14,404 bases of DNA from Anaerolineales bacterium (GTDB lineage: Bacteria > Chloroflexota > Anaerolineae > Anaerolineales > Villigracilaceae): assembly GCA_028689195.1 (NCBI GenBank), contig JAQTWR010000026.1, forward strand, positions 1 to 14,404, given 5' to 3'. This document shows, in pieces, positions 3 through 12,106 of the stretch. Position numbers and translations under genes: made by a program. Under the pieces are notes generated by a model. That model saw nothing but the letters and a program-made list of their open reading frames with translations. It ran no database searches and was not told where the DNA came from. Within the stretch, counting starts at the first letter, position 1. Every line of letters begins with the position of its first letter.

Positions 3-1370
3 GCGTTTTCCGCCGCCGCGCTGGGATATTTGATCTTCTCGCTGTGGGGAATTCCGCTCGAAATGAAGTTGCCGCGCATCCATTTCCCGCCAATCGCGTC
101 TTTCGTTAAGGAGAACGCGCAAGGCGTCGCGCTGGCGCTGATCTTCTTTGCCGTCTATCTTTTCATCGGCTTGCGGCTGAATTTCCCCGACAAAGACACC
201 ACCGATAATTTCCTCTCCGCAGACAATTACCCGTGGATGCAGCGCATCGCCGCGCCCGACGGTTTTAACAACGAAATGCGCGCGCCGCATCCGTTTGCCT
301 ATCTCATTTTTCGTCCGCTTGGCGCGGCGCTGAATTTATTCACGCAAGACCCCGCGCTTTCCGCCATTCTGCTAACCACATTCACGGGCGCGCTCTGCAT
401 CCTGCTGGCGTGGATGTTTATCAAACGCCAATTTCAAGATTCGATCTACGCCTTTTTAATCGCGTCGCTGCTTGGGCTGAGTACCGCGCATATTTTTTTT
501 GGCTCAGTCGTCGAGACGTACATCTTCTCCGCCGCCGCGATGATTGCCTTCTTCCTCCTGCTTCAATCGCAAAAAAACGCGACGAGTTCATTAATAAGCG
601 TCAGCCTGCTTACGTTTGGAATCACGCTGACGAATTTTATCCAGAACTTTATCGGCTTTGTCGTTCAGCGCCTGAAATTCTCCCGCAAAGATTTTTGGAC
701 TTCGACAAAAGAGACGATTAAGTTCGCGGGTTTGACGCTTTCTTTCGGCGTTGTCTTGAGCGTAATTCACGCCGCGCTGTATCCGACAAGCAAATTATTC
801 TTCCTATTATCGGGCGCGCAAGCCGAGCAGAGTTTTGAGTATTCGATTTTTCAAGAACCCGCATGGCGCGCGATCGGGCGCGCGCTTCTGCTTGTCCGCA
901 CAATCGTTTTATACGCTGTCGTCGCGCCCAAGCCGTATGTGTTTTCAAAAGAAGTCGGCGGAACTTTCCCGCGCTTCAATTTTTTCAAGATCGTTCCCGG
1001 CACATTTTCTTACAGCGCGTACAGCGGATTAGGAAATATCCTCGTAGCCGCATGGGCGCTTTTGCTGCTTGCGGCGGGCGTCATGTTTTTGGCAAACCTC
1101 ATCCGCGCAAAAAAACTGGATTTGTCCTTTGCCTTCGCGCTCTGCGTTTTGTTCAACTTTATCCTTCATATCAATTACGGCTACGAACCGTTTTTATACT
1201 CGCCCGACTGGACCTACGCGCTGATATTCTTCGTCGCGCTGGCTCTCGCCCCGCTGGCGAAAAATAGACTCTTCCAAGCCGCGTTATTTATCTTTTTGAT
1301 TCTGCTGGCGTACAATCAATTTCAATTCTTCAAATTTATATTTGAAACCATCGCGCCGTTTGTCGGATAA
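3..1370 (+). CDS. Polytopic membrane protein, GT-C glycosyltransferase-like, 5' truncated by window edge
   Basis: The reading frame is open to the left edge, so the N-terminus lies outside the window. The TTG at 30 is not a convincing start because the preceding codons already encode part of a membrane helix. About 11-12 hydrophobic helices can be seen. The protein aligns with the next gene from about residue 120 of the latter onward. Shared blocks are an Asp-rich loop after a membrane helix (DKDTTDN), HPFAYLIFRP, FTGALCILLAW, ETYIF, FGITLTNFIQ and a C-terminal LH-x2-YG-x3-FLYS-x2-WTYA. An acidic loop after an early helix in a multi-helix protein is typical of GT-C enzymes, which use polyprenyl-phosphate sugars on the outer face of the membrane. 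I infer that role but do not recognise the exact family. The stop is TAA, and the paralogue starts 8 nt downstream, so the two are probably co-transcribed. Confidence 0.75.
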   Translation, partial: AFSAAALGYLIFSLWGIPLEMKLPRIHFPPIASFVKENAQGVALALIFFAVYLFIGLRLNFPDKDTTDNFLSADNYPWMQRIAAPDGFNNEMRAPHPFAYLIFRPLGAALNLFTQDPALSAILLTTFTGALCILLAWMFIKRQFQDSIYAFLIASLLGLSTAHIFFGSVVETYIFSAAAMIAFFLLLQSQKNATSSLISVSLLTFGITLTNFIQNFIGFVVQRLKFSRKDFWTSTKETIKFAGLTLSFGVVLSVIHAALYPTSKLFFLLSGAQAEQSFEYSIFQEPAWRAIGRALLLVRTIVLYAVVAPKPYVFSKEVGGTFPRFNFFKIVPGTFSYSAYSGLGNILVAAWALLLLAAGVMFLANLIRAKKLDLSFAFALCVLFNFILHINYGYEPFLYSPDWTYALIFFVALALAPLAKNRLFQAALFIFLILLAYNQFQFFKFIFETIAPFVG

Positions 1371-1378
1371 TATTTTTC

Positions 1379-3019
1379 ATGTTTAATTTAATTTCTCCCC
1401 GTATGCTGCCGGCGTGGGCGCTATCCCTTCCCGTTGCATATTTCACGCTCGGCTATTTGGGAAATTATTATTCGTCTTTTACAGCGATCATTCTCATCGC
1501 GGCGCTCGGTCAGGTCGTCTTTGGGCTGAGCGTCTATCGTTTGCTGGGCAAAGCGGAAAAATTATACGCAAATCACCGCTGGGATTTTTCCCTCGCGCTC
1601 GCCTTATTCGCCGCGTTGACCGTGTTTGTCGTCAAGATGTTCGAGACCGCCAATCGCTTCCCCCGCCTTTTCGACGCGAAATACATGACCCTCGAAGCGG
1701 GTCAAACGCTCCCATTTATGATCGGCTGCGCGATTGCTTTCCCATCCATGCTCTGGGCGGTTGGATTTTTCAAACAAAGAAAATTTTCGCAGTCCCGCTT
1801 ATATCAATTCCTCGACGAAATATCGGCGGGCGTTCTCATCGCCGCTTTTTTCTTCGCCTTTTATTTTATTTTCGCGTCCATATTCAATCAACCTGTCTTC
1901 GATGTGGACGATATATTTTTCGACACAGACGGTTTGCTCTGGCGCAGGCGGTTTGCCACGCCCGACTTTCAAGATTACTACTGGCGCTCGGTGCATCCGT
2001 TCGCGCTTTTGATTATCCGCCCGCTGGTCGCGCTGCTTGCCTTCTTTTTGAAAGGCGATAAACTCGCCGCCGCGTTTACGCTGACCGCCTTCGCGGGCGC
2101 GCTCTGCGTTTTTCTGGCGTGGTATTTTGTAAAACAAACCGCCGGAAATTCCCTCTACGCTTTGCTGATCGCGTCTTTGTTTGGCGCATCCGCCGCTTAC
2201 ATAATCTTTGGTTTTCTGCTCGAAACGTATATTTTCCTCGCCGCAGCGATGATGATTTTTCTGGTTTTACTGCTCAAAGACAAACCGCTGGTCGCGCTGA
2301 TTTTTACGGGCGCGCTTTCTTTTGGTATTACGCTCACGAATTTTGTTCAAACCGCGATTGCGTTTATTTTTATAAAACGCGATTTCAAACAATGGGTTAA
2401 GTACGGCGTAATCGTCGGCGCGTTGGTCGTCCCGCTGGCGCTGCTCAACAACTTCATTTATCCAAAATCGCAGCCGTATTTTTTCGACCCGTCCAGTTTC
2501 AACGCGGAGGCGGAGAATACGTTCGCGCCCAGCGTTCCCCGCGCGCTGGCAATCGCGCGCGTGATGGCGCTGCACAGCATCGTCGCGCCCGACCCATTAA
2601 TCCTCGACGAAGAAATTCCTTTTCTAAAAGTTTGGATATTCAAAGCCGAGCCAATGCGCTTAAGCGAATACAAAACATGGTCAGGCAAAATCCTCGCTTT
2701 CGTCTGGCTGGGATTGATTCTACTCGGCGAATTTCTTTTCCTAAAGAATTTGAAAAAGCAGGACCCGCGTTTTTCGCCTGCCTTCATTGTGATTCTGATT
2801 TTCAATTTTTTGCTCCACCTGAAATATGGAAAAGACCTTTTCCTTTATTCCGCCAATTGGACATACGCCATCGTTCTTTTCCTTGCGCTTGCATGGCGCG
2901 AACTCGCCGAACGAAAATGGTTTCAAATCGTTTTACTTGTTTTCATCGGGGCTTTGCTTGCGAATAATTCCCGCCTGATATTAACCATGTTGAGTACGTC
3001 CGCTTTGCACGTCAAATAA
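1379..3019 (+). CDS. Polytopic membrane protein, GT-C glycosyltransferase-like, tandem paralogue
   Basis: The 546-residue integral membrane protein has roughly 13-14 hydrophobic helices and is probably complete. An extra N-terminal part (residues 1-140, about three or four helices) precedes the region shared with the upstream gene. Visible conserved features are an acidic loop DVDDIFFDTDG (175-185) after a helix, H206-P207-F208, ETY (282-284), GITLTNFVQ (316-324) and LH-x2-YG-x3-FLYS-x2-WTYA (479-497). The acidic loop and topology fit a GT-C type lipid-linked sugar transferase acting at the cell surface, but no named family is recognised. The ATG lies 8 nt after the previous stop with no clear Shine-Dalgarno sequence, which suggests translational coupling. 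A strong terminator follows the stop directly. An alternative is a non-enzymatic membrane protein of unknown function. Confidence 0.8.
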   Translation: MFNLISPRMLPAWALSLPVAYFTLGYLGNYYSSFTAIILIAALGQVVFGLSVYRLLGKAEKLYANHRWDFSLALALFAALTVFVVKMFETANRFPRLFDAKYMTLEAGQTLPFMIGCAIAFPSMLWAVGFFKQRKFSQSRLYQFLDEISAGVLIAAFFFAFYFIFASIFNQPVFDVDDIFFDTDGLLWRRRFATPDFQDYYWRSVHPFALLIIRPLVALLAFFLKGDKLAAAFTLTAFAGALCVFLAWYFVKQTAGNSLYALLIASLFGASAAYIIFGFLLETYIFLAAAMMIFLVLLLKDKPLVALIFTGALSFGITLTNFVQTAIAFIFIKRDFKQWVKYGVIVGALVVPLALLNNFIYPKSQPYFFDPSSFNAEAENTFAPSVPRALAIARVMALHSIVAPDPLILDEEIPFLKVWIFKAEPMRLSEYKTWSGKILAFVWLGLILLGEFLFLKNLKKQDPRFSPAFIVILIFNFLLHLKYGKDLFLYSANWTYAIVLFLALAWRELAERKWFQIVLLVFIGALLANNSRLILTMLSTSALHVK

Positions 3020-3604: not shown

Positions 3605-4579
3605 TTATTTGGTTGCCTGCATCCAGAGCAGCGTGCGGTTTGCTTTGAAGCCCGCCGCTTGAATAGCCTCGTCGAATTTGCCGCTGGGGAATTCCAGCGC
3701 GATGCGGGAATATAGATGGACGAGGTCGCGCCGCGCTTGAATCAGCAGCGCGGTGAGCGCATTGGGGTCAGAGCAGGAATCGGCTGCGGCGAACAGCGCT
3801 TCGCCGCGCCCGTAGGGAATCCACGCGAGCGCGGATTCCATTTTGCCGTTTTTGAGCGCAGCCCATTGACGCGCGTTTGCGTCTATAAAGAAAAGATAGA
3901 GCCAATTCCAAATACCCGGGCGGAGCGCGTCGAAATTCCAGTTGCGATGCCACGATAGAAAATCGGGGTAGAGTTTCGCAAGCCAGCCGCGCTGCGTTTC
4001 CCAATCGCGCGGATTTCTTTTGGCGACGATAATATCCGTTTGCGGAGCCGCCGCGTGAGAATCAGTTACCGCGCTCCAGGAGGTGCGCCGCGCGCGTTCG
4101 ACGAATCCAAGTTTGGCGTAGAGATCAATCGCGGCGGGGTTATCGTCGCGGACGTGCAGCCAGATATTTTTCACTTTCTTTTCGCGGGCGCGCTGCATGG
4201 CGCGTTCGGTCAACGCGCGCGCGATTCCCCTGCGGCGATGGTCGGGATGTACGGCGATATTCGCGATAAGGTAGACGCGTTCTTTTTTGTATCGAAAGGG
4301 AACAAGGCTTGCGTTGCCGATAATCTTTCCGTTTTCTTCCCACACAAATCCCGTCAACGGCAGCGAGGTGGTCTCTGCAGCGCGGTTCGCCCACTGCACG
4401 AACGAGTTGTCGCTGCCAGCGCGACGCATGTCTTGCACATAGCGCTTGCCGTCGTTGTCCATTGTGCTGGCGAAACAAGTTTCGATTAAATCCGCTACGG
4501 CGGGCAGGTCGTGCAAAACGCTAATCGGGCGCAGGTGCGGGTGCGCATCTGCATATACGGGAAGGGTGATAGAAGACAT
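3605..4579 (-). CDS. GNAT family N-acetyltransferase with C-terminal extension domain
   Basis: This 324-residue protein has a standard GNAT fold at residues about 15-165. Motif A is IANIAVHPDHRRRGIARAL (about 105-123), containing the acetyl-CoA pyrophosphate-binding R-x-x-G-x-A. It is followed by NPAAIDLYAKLGF (147-159), the usual motif B region. The remaining 150 or so residues form a second region rich in Trp and aromatic residues that could be a degenerate second acetyltransferase-like domain or a substrate-binding domain; I do not recognise it. The substrate is unknown. The start ATG at 4579 has no clear Shine-Dalgarno; a G-rich stretch lies about 12 nt upstream. It follows the YtxH gene by 74 bp, with a hairpin between them. 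Confidence 0.85.
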   Translation of the reverse strand: MSSITLPVYADAHPHLRPISVLHDLPAVADLIETCFASTMDNDGKRYVQDMRRAGSDNSFVQWANRAAETTSLPLTGFVWEENGKIIGNASLVPFRYKKERVYLIANIAVHPDHRRRGIARALTERAMQRAREKKVKNIWLHVRDDNPAAIDLYAKLGFVERARRTSWSAVTDSHAAAPQTDIIVAKRNPRDWETQRGWLAKLYPDFLSWHRNWNFDALRPGIWNWLYLFFIDANARQWAALKNGKMESALAWIPYGRGEALFAAADSCSDPNALTALLIQARRDLVHLYSRIALEFPSGKFDEAIQAAGFKANRTLLWMQATK

Positions 4580-5699: not shown

Positions 5700-6905
5700 C
5701 TACTCCAATAACCTCGACACATGCTCGATAATTTTTTCAGCCGCCTCCGATTTGCTCATTAGCGGCAAACTCTCTTTTGTTCCGTTTTCAAACAATAACG
5801 TCACGCGATTGGTCTCCACTGCGAAGCCCGCATCGCTCGATGAAATGTCATTGGCGGCGATGAAATCCAAATTTTTAGATTTTAATTTTTCGCGCGCGTT
5901 TTCGAGCAGGTCTTGACTCTCCGCCGCGAAACCGACCACCGCGCGATAGCGCGACTTTCCTACGTTCAAACTGGATACTGTTTTCAAAATATCAGGCGCA
6001 GCCTCAAGTTCTATTTGCGGAATGCCGTCGCGCTTTTTAATTTTGTCTTTTGCAATACTCTTCGGGCGAAAGTCCGCCGCAGCCGCAGCCATAATCAACG
6101 CATCGGCTGATTCGCTCAACACCGCGTCGAGCATTTCTTCCGCGCTGTTTACTTTTATCACGCGCGCGCCAATCGGCGAAGTTAAACCCGTTGGCGCGGT
6201 AATCAAGCAAACCTCCGCGCCCGCATCCAGCGCGGCTTGCGCCAGCGCGTATCCCTGCCTGCCCGACGAATGATTTGTAATCACGCGCACGGGGTCGAGC
6301 ACTTCCTGAGTTCCGCCGGCGGTGACGATAATTTTTCTACCCGCGAGTTTTCCGCCCAGCCCCAATGCGATTCGGATGTGACCGAGAATCTCCGACGGTT
6401 CGATCATTCTGCCCGCGCCGACCAAGCCTGAAGCAAGATGCCCTTGCGCGGGACCGATCACAGTCGCGCCGCGATTTTTTAATCGCGCAAGATTCTCCTG
6501 CGTGGCGGGCGCGTCGAACATCCCGCCATCCATCGCGGGCGCAATCAACAACGGACATGCCGCCGCCAGCGCGGTAATGGTCAACAAATTATCCGATATT
6601 CCATTGGCAAGTTTTGCGATGGTGTTCGCCGTGCATGGCGCGATGACGAGCAAATCGGCGCGCTTGCCAAGATTGACGTGCAGGACGTGCGCCTCGGCGC
6701 CCCACAAATCTGCATCCACATAAGCGCGGCGCGACGTGACCGATTGAAACGTGAGCGGCGTGATGAAATTTTTCGCCGCGTCGGTCAGGATGACGTCTAC
6801 CAGCGCGCCCGCTTGCGTTAACTTGGACGCCAACTCGGCGGATTTATACGCCGCGATTGAACCCGTTATGCCAAGCAAAATGTGTTTGTCAGACAAGATG
6901 GACAT
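5700..6905 (-). CDS. coaBC: Bifunctional phosphopantothenoylcysteine decarboxylase / phosphopantothenate-cysteine ligase
   Basis: This 401-residue cytoplasmic enzyme converts 4'-phosphopantothenate and cysteine to 4'-phosphopantetheine in CoA synthesis. The N-terminal CoaC flavoprotein domain (1-185) shows GITGSIAAYKS, the catalytic-type HVNL (H76), PCTAN (90-94), PAMD (123-126) and GHLASGLVGAGRM. The C-terminal CoaB ligase domain (190-401) shows VTAGGTQE, ITNHSSGRQGYALA, AAAAADFRP-x5-KIKK, VGFAAES and ANDIS. Length and domain order are normal for CoaBC. Two CoaC positions differ from the E. coli type: Asp replaces Asn in PAMN, and Ser159 replaces the loop Cys. The start ATG at 6905 has no Shine-Dalgarno; a TATAAT 8 nt upstream suggests a leaderless mRNA. 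It heads an operon with the phosphoesterase gene. Confidence 0.97.
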   Translation of the reverse strand: MSILSDKHILLGITGSIAAYKSAELASKLTQAGALVDVILTDAAKNFITPLTFQSVTSRRAYVDADLWGAEAHVLHVNLGKRADLLVIAPCTANTIAKLANGISDNLLTITALAAACPLLIAPAMDGGMFDAPATQENLARLKNRGATVIGPAQGHLASGLVGAGRMIEPSEILGHIRIALGLGGKLAGRKIIVTAGGTQEVLDPVRVITNHSSGRQGYALAQAALDAGAEVCLITAPTGLTSPIGARVIKVNSAEEMLDAVLSESADALIMAAAAADFRPKSIAKDKIKKRDGIPQIELEAAPDILKTVSSLNVGKSRYRAVVGFAAESQDLLENAREKLKSKNLDFIAANDISSSDAGFAVETNRVTLLFENGTKESLPLMSKSEAAEKIIEHVSRLLE

Positions 6906-6913
6906 AGGCGCTG

Positions 6914-6942
6914 ATTATACTTCCATGCAGTATAAGTGACAG
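6914..6942 (-). promoter_or_regulatory. coaBC promoter, probably giving a leaderless mRNA, with overlapping palindrome
   Basis: On the minus strand a perfect TATAAT (6914-6919) lies 17 bp from CTGTCA (6937-6942, 4 of 6 positions of TTGACA). Only 8 nt separate the -10 box from the coaBC ATG, so transcription should begin at or within a few bases of the start codon. A 7-bp inverted repeat (arms 6915-6921 and 6929-6935) overlaps the -10 box and spacer and could be an operator. The -35 box lies inside the 31-nt hairpin element. Confidence 0.65.
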
Positions 6943-6965
6943 TCGTCTGTGATGTGACTGTCACT
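6935..6965. repeat. 31-nt hairpin repeat, copy A (GACAGTC element)
   Basis: Arms AGTGACAGTC (6935-6944) and GACTGTCACT (6956-6965) pair perfectly around an 11-nt loop; one further pair outside (6934/6966) reaches the stop codon of the reductase gene. It matches copy B at 8096-8126 in length, stem and loop edges. On the minus strand it lies just after the reductase stop and before coaBC. No U-tract follows, so a classical terminator is unlikely. Confidence 0.85.
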
Positions 6966-8075
6966 TTACACGTTTTCTCGTTCTACGCCTTCAAACTCCA
7001 AAATAAAATCCGCGCCGTAGGCTTTGCTTGGGGTTTGAAAACCAGTTTTGTAATGGCCGTCTAAAATGCGTTTCATAATTTCAACCGAAGTCAGCGAAGT
7101 CAGATAATACGCTTCGGGAGTTTTTAGTTTTGCGCGGACACATATCTCTTGGACTGCAAAATCTCCAGATTGTGCAGTCGAATTTTGTCCAAAGTCAGGA
7201 GGCTTTGGACTCCGTACCTCGGCGATAAGCAAACTAAATCCGCTTTTGTTTTGTTCTTGTGATGGACCGGATGGCAGCGTTTTTCCGATCATCCATTTAA
7301 GAAAATCCCGCGCGGCGCGCGAGTAAAGCAGCGCGCCGAGATACCGCATGGCTTTCATTCCGTTGACCATCGAGTTTGGAAATCCCATATACGTTGTGAT
7401 GTTCGGAATCCCCGTGCTGTAATACGCCGTGCTCACATCGCCCCAGCCGACGGAAACCACGCGCGAGGCGCCGCGACCGAAATCAATCATCTTGGAATCC
7501 CAAACGTTTGGCACGCTGATAATTTTTCCGTCGCGGCGGATGCGCCCCTGACGCTGCATGTTCTCAATGCCTGAACGCGCCGTTCCGCGCGAAACTCCGC
7601 TGCCGATACTTTTGATATAAAGTTCGAGATGCGTTGCGTTTTCAACTTTACTGGCAACATACGCGCTCAAACAATCGGATGGCGCCACGTCAAAACCGCC
7701 GCCGGGCAGAAACATAATTCCCGCGCGTTTTGCTTCTTCATCCATTAATGCCAACGCTTCAAAGCCTTCTATTTCGCCGCTGATGTCTACATAATGACGC
7801 TTGGTACGAAGGCACGCTTCCGCCATTTGTTGAAACGTCAACACGAAAGGACCCGCGCAATGCAAAACCGCATCCACTTCAAGCAACGCCGAATCCAGCG
7901 CGGATGAATCTTCGATTGAAAATGCGCGATATTCCAAGCCAAATTTTTCGGCTTGCGCGCGTAATTGGTTTTCGTCGCGCCCCGCAAGGATTGGCTTCAT
8001 TCCTTGTTTGACCGCCTGCTCGACAATTAAATTTCCCGTGTACCCATACGAACCGTAAATTAAAAAACTTTTCAT
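6966..8075 (-). CDS. Saccharopine dehydrogenase NADP-binding-like oxidoreductase
   Basis: This 369-residue protein begins with a Rossmann nucleotide-binding motif, GSYGYTG (8-14), followed by AGRDENQL (31-38) and CAGPF (73-77), the pattern of the PF03435 family (trans-acting enoyl reductase-like branch). Downstream blocks YVDISGE (95-101) and PGGGFDVAPSDC (124-135) fit the same branch. Such proteins are NAD(P)-dependent reductases or dehydrogenases; the substrate is unknown and true saccharopine dehydrogenase activity is unlikely. Residues 289-309 look like an in-frame insertion encoded by a double palindrome (7151-7211). The family normally resumes at VRAKLKTPEAYYLT (313-326). The start at 8075 has GGAG 5 nt upstream. 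Both ends of the gene carry the same 31-nt hairpin. Confidence 0.88.
   Translation of the reverse strand: MKSFLIYGSYGYTGNLIVEQAVKQGMKPILAGRDENQLRAQAEKFGLEYRAFSIEDSSALDSALLEVDAVLHCAGPFVLTFQQMAEACLRTKRHYVDISGEIEGFEALALMDEEAKRAGIMFLPGGGFDVAPSDCLSAYVASKVENATHLELYIKSIGSGVSRGTARSGIENMQRQGRIRRDGKIISVPNVWDSKMIDFGRGASRVVSVGWGDVSTAYYSTGIPNITTYMGFPNSMVNGMKAMRYLGALLYSRAARDFLKWMIGKTLPSGPSQEQNKSGFSLLIAEVRSPKPPDFGQNSTAQSGDFAVQEICVRAKLKTPEAYYLTSLTSVEIMKRILDGHYKTGFQTPSKAYGADFILEFEGVERENV
7151..7211. repeat. Double-palindrome element inside the reductase coding sequence
   Basis: The first inverted repeat has 13-bp arms (7152-7164 and 7167-7179, 12 of 13 pairs) separated by only 2 nt. The second has perfect 8-bp arms (7187-7194 and 7203-7210), extendable by a G-U and a C-G pair to a 4-nt loop. 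Together they encode residues 289-309 of the reductase without breaking the frame. Two adjacent strong palindromes in a coding sequence suggest a small inserted repeat. Confidence 0.65.
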
Positions 8076-8095
8076 AGATACTCCATCTACAATAA

Positions 8096-8126
8096 AGCGA
8101 CAGTCGCCTCGCGGGTGACTGTCGCT
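8096..8126. repeat. 31-nt hairpin repeat, copy B (GACAGTC element)
   Basis: Arms AGCGACAGTC (8096-8105) and GACTGTCGCT (8117-8126) pair perfectly around an 11-nt loop. Compared with copy A at 6935-6965, the third base pair is C-G instead of T-A, a compensatory change. On the minus strand it begins 6 nt after the LipM-like gene stop and ends 20 nt before the reductase start codon. Confidence 0.85.
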
Positions 8127-8132
8127 GAAACT

Positions 8133-8945
8133 TTACGAGCGTTCCGTCCACGCCGGGTTTGCGTATTTTTCTTTGACCAACTCCTCCGCGCGCGCAGATT
8201 CGGATTCCGATAATTCTCCGCGCTCGAAGTTGATTCCCAATTGCGCTTCGAATCCTTTCACAAAAGATTGCGCCGCTGCTTCCCAAGCGATCTCTTTTCC
8301 CAAAATCGATTCGACCGTCGCGGCGCGCGACAGCAATCGTTGCGCCGCATTCTCCCGCGCAGATTCATTTTCAAATTTCAGCGCCTCGCAAATGCGCGTC
8401 AAGTCGCCTGTCAACGGGAGCGAGCCGTGCTGCAACACGCCTTCTTTTTTCCGCGCCTGCGCCGAGCCGATGAGTTTTTTTCCGTTCACGGTAATTTCAT
8501 ACGTAGATGGGACTTCAAAGCAGACGGGATTTGCCGCGCTAGTCATACTGGAAGCATGACCTACATTCATTTCGACGGGCAAACCAATTTCACGCGCCGC
8601 AAACATCAACGCCTGCGCGAGGCGGTTATAGGATTCTAAAACGCCGCCAAATAACGCAGGGACATCCGCGCCGCCTATCACTGAATACGTTAATTCGTCC
8701 GTATGCAAAATCGCGCGTCCGCCGGTTAATCGGCGCACCACGTCCCAGCCGTTGGATTGCAGCCGCGCAACGTCTACATCTTTGAAAGACTGCGCGTGCC
8801 CCAACGACAAACACGGAGGATTCCACGCATACAGGCGCAGCGTGGGCAGCGCTTCGCCGCGATGGATGTGTTCGAGAATCGATTCGTCCACCGCCATATT
8901 CCACGCGCCGTTTGATGGGAAAGTATAGAGAAGTCGCCAGTTCAT
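8133..8945 (-). CDS. Octanoyltransferase LipM-like (lipoate-protein ligase A family)
   Basis: The 270-residue protein belongs to the BPL/LplA/LipB catalytic fold family. Visible motifs are NMAVDESIL (16-24), RLYAWNPPCLSLGHAQ (37-52), RRLTGGRAILHTDELTYSV (71-89), Cys142 in NPVCFEVPSTYEI, GKKLIGSAQ with the conserved Lys (155-163) and LQHGSLPL (171-178). A Cys in the segment before YEI is found in LipM-type octanoyltransferases, where it forms the octanoyl-thioester, and is not typical of ATP-dependent LplA. I therefore favour transfer of octanoyl from ACP to lipoyl domains for lipoate synthesis. The start MNWRLLYTF at 8945 matches the family; the frame is open 43 codons further but that stretch overlaps the divergent tsaE gene. 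No Shine-Dalgarno is visible. An LplA or LipL role is the alternative. Confidence 0.85.
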   Translation of the reverse strand: MNWRLLYTFPSNGAWNMAVDESILEHIHRGEALPTLRLYAWNPPCLSLGHAQSFKDVDVARLQSNGWDVVRRLTGGRAILHTDELTYSVIGGADVPALFGGVLESYNRLAQALMFAAREIGLPVEMNVGHASSMTSAANPVCFEVPSTYEITVNGKKLIGSAQARKKEGVLQHGSLPLTGDLTRICEALKFENESARENAAQRLLSRAATVESILGKEIAWEAAAQSFVKGFEAQLGINFERGELSESESARAEELVKEKYANPAWTERS

Positions 8946-11397: not shown

Positions 11398-11781
11398 ATG
11401 GCACAAGTTATCGCAAGAAGAAAAATATCCCTCAGTAAAAAAATTTCCGCGCCAATAGGGAAGAAAAGCGCGCCTAAAGACCGTTTCATAAGATTGAAAT
11501 CGCAGGTAACGCCCTTGCTGAAGCCATACGCCAAACGAATTTCAGTTTTTGGCTCCTATGCGCGAGGCGAGGCGACCGCTTTGAGCGATATTGATTTGCT
11601 CATTGCCCTCAAACCCGTTGAAGCGCGCCCTTCGCTTGGTTTATTCGAATTTATTGCGCTTGAACAGGCGTTGGCAAAAAAATTAGGCTGCGACGTTGAT
11701 TTGGTCACCGAAGAAGATATTAATCCGCGCCGAAGGAAAAACATCGAGAAAGATAAGGTGGTTTTGTATGAGGCAAAATAG
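11398..11781 (+). CDS. mntA: MntA-type minimal nucleotidyltransferase antitoxin
   Basis: The 127-residue protein has the polymerase-beta-like signature GSYARGEATALSDIDLLI (52-69), with metal ligands D64 and D66 and a third acidic residue in CDVDLV (D101). MntA proteins add AMP units to the conserved Tyr of the partner toxin HepT and so inactivate it. The partner gene overlaps the 3' end by 14 nt, as expected for this toxin-antitoxin type. About 30 basic residues (K/R-rich, 5-30) precede the core domain, longer than a minimal MNT. The ATG at 11398 is supported by the closely placed -10 box. Without a functional test it could also be an inactive relic, but all catalytic residues are present. 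Confidence 0.9.
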   Translation: MAQVIARRKISLSKKISAPIGKKSAPKDRFIRLKSQVTPLLKPYAKRISVFGSYARGEATALSDIDLLIALKPVEARPSLGLFEFIALEQALAKKLGCDVDLVTEEDINPRRRKNIEKDKVVLYEAK

Positions 11782-12106
11782 AGACCATATCTATTTAGGC
11801 GATATCTTCGACGCTATAGAAAGAATTGAAGGTTACACAACAGGGGTAAAGAAAAAAGACTTCATGGATAATTTTATGATGCAGGACGCGGTCATGCGCC
11901 AGATCGAGATCATTGGCGAAGCGTCTAACAGCGTTTCGGATGAATTTCAAGAAGAGCATCAGAATCTCCCGTGGTTTCAAATGCGCGGTATTCGCAATAA
12001 AATAGTTCACGACTACCGCGGAATCAATCTGCATATTATTTGGGATACGGTAACCAATAATTTGCCCCTGCTCAAAAAACAGGTTCAGGATATTTTGGGC
12101 GAATAG
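11768..12106 (+). CDS. hepT: HepT-like HEPN ribonuclease toxin (DUF86)
   Basis: The 112-residue all-helical HEPN protein has the active-site motif R76-N-K-I-V-H81-D-Y83 (RX4HXY). Typical DUF86 blocks precede it: RQIEIIGEASNSVS (44-57) and LPWFQMRGIRNKIVHDYRGIN (67-87). HepT toxins cleave RNA; R and H are catalytic, and the motif Tyr is the residue that MntA AMPylates. The start at 11768 overlaps the mntA stop by 14 nt. It gives the family's usual N-terminus (RDHIYLGDIFDAIERIEGYT), whereas longer readings only add sequence out of frame with mntA. Confidence 0.92.
   Translation: MRQNRDHIYLGDIFDAIERIEGYTTGVKKKDFMDNFMMQDAVMRQIEIIGEASNSVSDEFQEEHQNLPWFQMRGIRNKIVHDYRGINLHIIWDTVTNNLPLLKKQVQDILGE

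Follow-up and report, generated by a model that had tools for sequence, protein, structure and literature searches.

A REP-like palindromic element with a GGAGTC tag, apparently inserted in frame in a reductase gene of an Anaerolineales bacterium and recurrent in the loops of other genes

A reductase gene of an uncultured bacterium of the Anaerolineales (Chloroflexota) very probably carries, in frame and within a loop, a REP-like palindromic element whose dispersed family most likely owes its movement to a RAYT transposase and has entered other genes and other lineages repeatedly. The gene lies in a stretch of 14,404 nucleotides, hereafter the window, from a fragmented draft assembly (G000; 2.85 Mb in 422 contigs, 82% complete). 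Judged from its sequence, the element is a real palindromic insertion that is probably translated, and a member of a putative new REP-like family recognizable by the GGAGTC tag. The kind of phenomenon is already known, because protein-coding palindromes are on record in the Rickettsia RPEs and in GTAG and CGTC REPs that lie within genes. What stands out is that unrelated palindromes have repeatedly come to occupy the same loops.

The host gene, on the minus strand (6966..8075), is a frame of 369 codons that stays open throughout and is assigned by its PF03435 match and its homologues to the NADP-binding, saccharopine-dehydrogenase-like reductases. The element occupies 63 nt of the same strand (7151..7213) and runs in frame from within codon R288 into codon Q309. 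Read from 7213 to 7151, it has GGAGTCC at one end and GCAGTCC at the other, this right end being set by hand from comparison with other copies; between them stand two hairpins separated by an 8-nt linker region. The first hairpin, GTCCAAAG ... CTTTGGAC (7187..7210, minus strand), has perfect 8-bp arms that can be extended to 10 around AGGA, and encodes SPKPPDFG; the second, GACTGCACAATCT ... AGATTTTGCAGTC (7152..7179, minus strand), has arms of 13 nt with 12 positions paired and a CC spacer, and encodes TAQSGDFAV. Two adjacent palindromes of this geometry, encoding residues 289-309 without interrupting the frame, had been described in the original prediction, and all of this holds, with S289-Q309 corresponding to 7211-7149; the extent given there, 7151..7211, was right in location and slightly short, since the GGAGTCC start lies at 7213.

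Chance formation of a palindrome at 7151-7213 is ruled out by the folding score together with the synonymous-codon and two-mer shuffles. The DNA fold of 7140-7220 has z = -3.85, with none of 200 shuffles equally stable; the 21 pairs observed in the insert region are reached by 0 of 500 synonymous-codon shuffles of the reading frame (mean 1.7); and the window as a whole contains two adjacent hairpin pairs against a mean of 0.07 in 30 two-mer shuffles. The other pair (3786-3839) sits inside an acetyltransferase-like ORF of 324 residues (3605-4579) and may be another in-gene palindrome. Hairpins of a different palindrome family (GTGACAGTC ... GACTGTCAC) flank the reductase gene at 6934-6965 and 8096-8126.

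Comparison with homologues identifies the 289-309 region as an insertion. The window reductase reads IAEV-RSPKPPDFGQNSTAQSGDFAVQEIC-VRAKL where homologues read IAEV-TDGKQT-VRAKL, a surplus of 19 residues that is missing from 120 of 120 homologues listed (the best 120 of 6,797, E <= 1e-30), and the short loop that had been expected after the AEV strand in this enzyme family is indeed found, as the six-residue TDGKQT. The host codons directly after the element (7139..7150, minus strand) represent the rest of this native loop. The sister genome Anaerolineaceae bacterium Bin_61_3 (L072, 83% identical by tblastn) has the uninserted gene, its site reading GAA GTA ACG AAC GGC AAA CAA ACC GCG CGC; neither a target-site duplication nor a clean empty site is readable here, because this relative, the nearest with an empty site, has diverged too far. 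From 38 aligned sequences, of which the first starts at residue 2 (positions are shifted by one to ORF numbering), AlphaFold2 returned a model of modest quality (mean pLDDT 69.4) in which the insert forms an extended loop between strands 280-290 and 310-319, with pLDDT <50 at 295-307. Because the model puts it in a loop between two strands, the insert is taken to occupy the place of a short turn. In the predicted translation, the element would add to the reductase a loop of about 21 element-encoded residues, for a net gain of 19.

Further copies were found both in the same genome and in its relatives, so that the two checks set in the original prediction, this one and the comparison with homologues, both came out in its favour. 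A BLAST search of G000 with the element returns 18 places at E <= 10, and the core pattern CRAARYCNNNNGRYTTYG occurs there at 31 sites against 0 for a reversed-pattern control. The family form is GGAGTCC-hairpin-hairpin-GGACTCC; copies are single or double and end in GGAGTC ... GACTCC, and a sister core, CCAACG(A)(C)TC, is present in mixed doubles. Single units span 24-30 nt and measured copies 30-68 nt, in keeping with the short palindromic unit (about 20-40 nt) in many copies that is typical of REPs; paired hairpins are common (for example L001, L004, L005, L006 and the copies of G007), and single units also occur. Among 61 genomes of the taxonomic family the core is present in 51, with 1 to 96 copies (control up to 4), the richest being G007 with 96. 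Eight of 41 genomes of the genus hold at least 17 cores (G079 51, G066 39, G000 31, G094 31, G090 27, G065 24, G092 22, G069 17); the remainder hold at most 10 each, and low counts mean little because the reversed control reaches a similar level (0-5). In G007, three double elements (L080, L082, L085) lie within a longer conserved stem (GGACTTTCGCTTT... GGCGAAAGCCCTG-like), an arrangement that suggests a larger composite unit.

The distribution of the 31 sites in G000 is mainly outside conserved genes, as in REPs: 22 have no placement in a conserved gene on ORF context alone, eight, representing seven elements, are in frame within long ORFs for which homologues exist, and one (C225:25366, in an ORF of 383 residues) is judged a chance match because the residues look native. 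The seven element-bearing ORFs are the window reductase, QueA, YifB/ComM, LipB and three hydrophobic proteins (L029, L024 and L022) that match no Pfam entry. At the element site QueA is 15-18 residues longer than 1yy3 and 1vky, and LipB is 12 residues longer than 2qht; for YifB the alignment to a PDB entry (8rxd) is too gapped at the site, and a genus alignment was used instead. L029 exceeds its three genus homologues by 12-13 residues, and L024 exceeds one close homologue by 16 residues for a unit of 30 nt. Two tandem hydrophobic paralogues in the window (30-1370 and 1379-3019) are kin of L024, which lies elsewhere in the genome; they lack 16 and 7 of its 16 extra residues. L022 contains element-like sequence with zero net gain over four homologues and is less surely an in-frame copy, the weakest of the set. 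Besides the reductase, then, five further genes of this genome (QueA, YifB/ComM, LipB, L029 and L024) carry in-frame family members. In the element-rich G007, sampling of 12 elements (15 loci), among them one chance match, gave no in-frame copy within a conserved gene; the G007 match L077, inside an ORF of 447 residues, is taken as chance in the same way as C225:25366. The cases are too few to claim avoidance of a Trp-rich reading frame.

What could have dispersed these elements? A PF01797 search of eight element-rich genomes gave 28 loci, four of which (L189, L194, L201, L203) have the family core in their flanks. L203 (G034) and L201 (G007) each encode a RAYT of 175 residues, 63% alike, with family elements close on both sides; they score 102.9 and 106.5 bits, respectively, against NF047646 REP_Tyr_transpos (NCBIfam, cut-off 80). 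A RAYT homologue is present in 15 of the 41 genus genomes. The closest three (L206, L207 and L219, at 57-63% identity, L219 over 72 residues) all have family cores in their flanks, and the other 17 (<=45% identity) have none. The flanks of these 17 hold palindromes of other kinds, several of which have similar ends (AGTC ... GACT), so that palindrome family and RAYT subclade go together. Elements beside a RAYT, another feature of REPs, are thus seen in five other genomes (G034, G007, G062, G079 and G065, the last on one side seen), and it is for this reason that we read the GGAGTC family as a RAYT-mobilised REP family.

No RAYT of the element-linked clade was found in G000 (82% complete), an absence that may be explained by incompleteness or loss. 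None was found in G066, with its 39 cores, and G062 has one, yet only 5 cores. The Y1 transposases of G000 (L069-L071) were considered as mobilisers and rejected, the palindromes that flank them being of other kinds than the GGAGTC family. One of them, the Y1-type ORF L071, has GTAGCACAGGCTTAAGCCTGTGCTAC-type, i.e. GTAG-tagged, palindromes on both sides (1409-1434 and 2080-2105), and a hairpin similar to those flanking the reductase gene lies near L069; the Y1 locus L200 of G034 has such a hairpin on either side. At L203, L201, L206 and L207, in several genomes, the RAYT apparently has the same gene next to it, one with a Cys/Ala/Gly-rich tail at its end, which suggests vertical inheritance at a fixed locus.

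We infer a course of events in which the RAYT transposase would move GGAGTC two-hairpin elements as REPs and REPINs are moved, and one copy would have entered the reductase gene, in frame, at the loop that joins two strands. The palindrome contains few stop codons and extra residues are tolerated in the loop, so the gene would have stayed open, and the element would be translated as part of the enzyme with near-neutral effect. Similar events would have recurred in other conserved genes and in the same loops of different lineages, with native loop sequence lost or trimmed.

The 41 genus genomes were searched with pieces of six proteins, and the matches listed gave, with own counted, 32 readable sequences for QueA, 36 for LipB and 34 for YifB. 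A GGAGTC-type element is present in 4 of the 32 QueA sequences read among these matches (own, G079, G069 and G092) and in 3 of the 34 YifB sequences (own, G092 and G090). In different species the LipB loop is filled by palindromes of three families that are unrelated to one another: among the matches listed, the 36 sequences read comprise three with GGAGTC elements (own, G090 and G092), two whose loop holds a CCCTCACCCC ... GGGGTGAGGG palindrome (G095 and G031), 15 with AGACCTGACAGGTCT ... AGACCTGTCAGGTCT, some of them degenerate, and 16 with neither GGAGTC-type nor other palindromes. The CCCTCACCCC pattern has 37+39 sites in G031 and 26+22 in G095, both among the four highest of the 41 genomes (control 0), and AGACCTGWCAGGTCT occurs in 27 of 41 (control 0), often paired about 49-51 nt apart; given these counts against a control of 0, the CCCTCACCCC- and AGACCTGACAGGTCT-type palindromes are also dispersed repeats. 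In the 120 best LipB homologues from the protein search, whose loops were classed by peptide alone, 86 have a loop of 14 residues and most others have longer peptides that look element-derived: AGACCTG-type in 22, GGAGTC-type in five by script (own included) with three more by eye (P0125, P0132, P0225), and CCCTCACC-type in two by script, with two G-rich-looking ones added by eye (P0210, P0215).

In the 40 genus genomes, own left out, in which at least one of QueA, YifB and LipB was read among the matches listed, a GGAGTC element is present in these genes in 4 of the 7 genomes that have 17 or more cores and in none of the 33 below that number (Fisher p = 3.8e-4, without correction for relatedness). 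G065, G066 and G094 are core-rich, yet show no GGAGTC element in the genes read among these matches.

The lengths of the copies complicate a simple insertion. In 13 of 13 copies measured, with hand-set boundaries, the net gain falls 6-35 nt below the length of the element (6 nt in the window reductase, 21 in each YifB, 12-35 in LipB and 8-14 in QueA), and native loop sequence has therefore been lost or trimmed. This counts against simple insertion; L024 goes the opposite way and L022 has no net gain. The shortfall could reflect either the element replacing part of the loop or a later trimming of the loop. It is conceivable, although we favour it less, that a palindromic cassette replaced the native loop outright, with template switching, gene conversion between copies or microhomology as the route, and that the families could later be swapped. 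The consistent shortfall speaks for such replacement, as does the partition of the LipB loop among three families. The QueA hairpins of G079 and G092 also show matched substitutions in their two arms (GACGAC/GTCGTC versus GATGAC/GTCATC), which would fit separate arrivals or exchange between copies, and QueA relatives have at the site GTGGAGAATGGACCG, whose GGAG and GGAC are in common with the element ends. Selection trimming a longer loop would nevertheless yield the same lengths, the gain in L024 exceeds its element, the boundaries are hand-set, and no intermediate was seen among these sequences. With the same reserve, the LipB, QueA and YifB loops might be regarded as recurrent docking sites, at which unrelated hairpin families replace the native loop and are exchanged, an abundant palindrome tending to supply the loop. 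Were this so, the evolution of protein loops would be driven by RAYT-type mobile palindromes acting as interchangeable coding cassettes.

It is rather unlikely that each gene received its element in a single ancestral event and then kept or lost it. The YifB inserts of G000, G092 and G090 agree in position, hairpin order and frame, as such an event would predict, and the backbone of the protein tree (504 columns, 33 genomes) is weak, with support of 46-75 at several nodes. The same tree, however, places G092 with G080 (91) and G081 (98), away from G000, G079 and G069, and the QueA genes of G080 and G081 are without the element, although recombination of gene segments could produce this pattern too; LipB, moreover, has different families in different species. 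Retention of the in-gene hairpins for a structural function of the RNA or DNA, such as mRNA stability or attenuation, with the peptide incidental, is improbable. The hairpin is stable and the QueA copies show paired changes, but a known RNA family is rejected by the lack of any Rfam match within 6850-8200 at E <= 1, the sites lie in protein loop regions, and some species have no element at the same place. An artefact of assembly or chance can be dismissed with near certainty, for although the draft is fragmented, in 422 contigs and 82% complete, the frame is intact, the family has many sites, and in-frame copies occur in other genes and in separately assembled genomes.

RAYT-mediated insertion of a REP-like element remains our preferred reading, and it has several precedents. 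PMC3733652 describes GTAG and CGTC REPs that lie within genes and encode 20-30 residues, treats the intragenic REPs of R. conorii as the same as RPE-4 and RPE-6, and places REPs at about the same recB site in two Xanthomonas species; it also records GTAG repeats for the Chloroflexi and in-gene REPs for other phyla. REPINs and RAYTs are defined in PMC3116915 and PMC2817692. As characterized in these papers (PMC2817692, PMC3116915, PMC3733652), REP/REPIN and RAYT systems resemble the present family in their short, single or paired, dispersed palindromes, which lie mostly outside conserved genes and flank a RAYT in relatives, and the GTAG/CGTC REPs share in-frame intragenic copies with it (PMC3733652). 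The family differs from the GTAG and CGTC super-families of that paper in its tag, its ends being GGAGTC ... GACTCC, and the string 'GGAG' was not found in the text of the three papers as searched. Its Anaerolineales hosts and the several unrelated palindrome families in one enzyme loop further set it apart from known REPs.

The likeness to Rickettsia elements suggested in the original prediction stands as an analogy, in that the element is in frame, protein-coding and palindromic. According to PMC2229807, RPEs are in frame in 19 reading frames, an RPE-containing guanylate kinase is expressed and active, and in-frame palindromes in conserved proteins are accompanied by copies between genes, as here. 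The present element is nevertheless no RPE: the same paper gives RPEs as Rickettsia-specific and 105-146 bp long, whereas this one is shorter, at 63 nt, has an Anaerolineales host and, judging from relatives, is probably mobilised by a RAYT/REP system. The intragenic MITEs ERIC/RU-1 and YAPL, described in that paper, are likewise small non-autonomous open-frame repeats fused to genes, but as a rule they show TA ends, terminal inverted repeats and target duplications; none was seen here, the nearest empty site (L072) being too diverged for a duplication to be read. Our literature searches, covering openly licensed papers, returned nothing on such elements in Anaerolineales, in line with the supposed rarity of such cases in Chloroflexota, although the Chloroflexi GTAG repeats are already reported in PMC3733652. 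Within the papers searched, the tag, the host group and the use of one loop by several palindrome families appear new.

These observations extend protein-coding palindromes to free-living Anaerolineales and tie them to a RAYT family. They also provide a natural series in which one enzyme loop, in close relatives, either has no element or holds a palindrome from any of three families, so that neutrality, the keeping of the frame and the role of hairpins as raw material for loops become testable.

Elsewhere in the window, a nucleotidyltransferase-like ORF (11398-11781) overlaps a HEPN-like ORF (11696-12106), a pair whose motifs resemble those of a known toxin-antitoxin arrangement.
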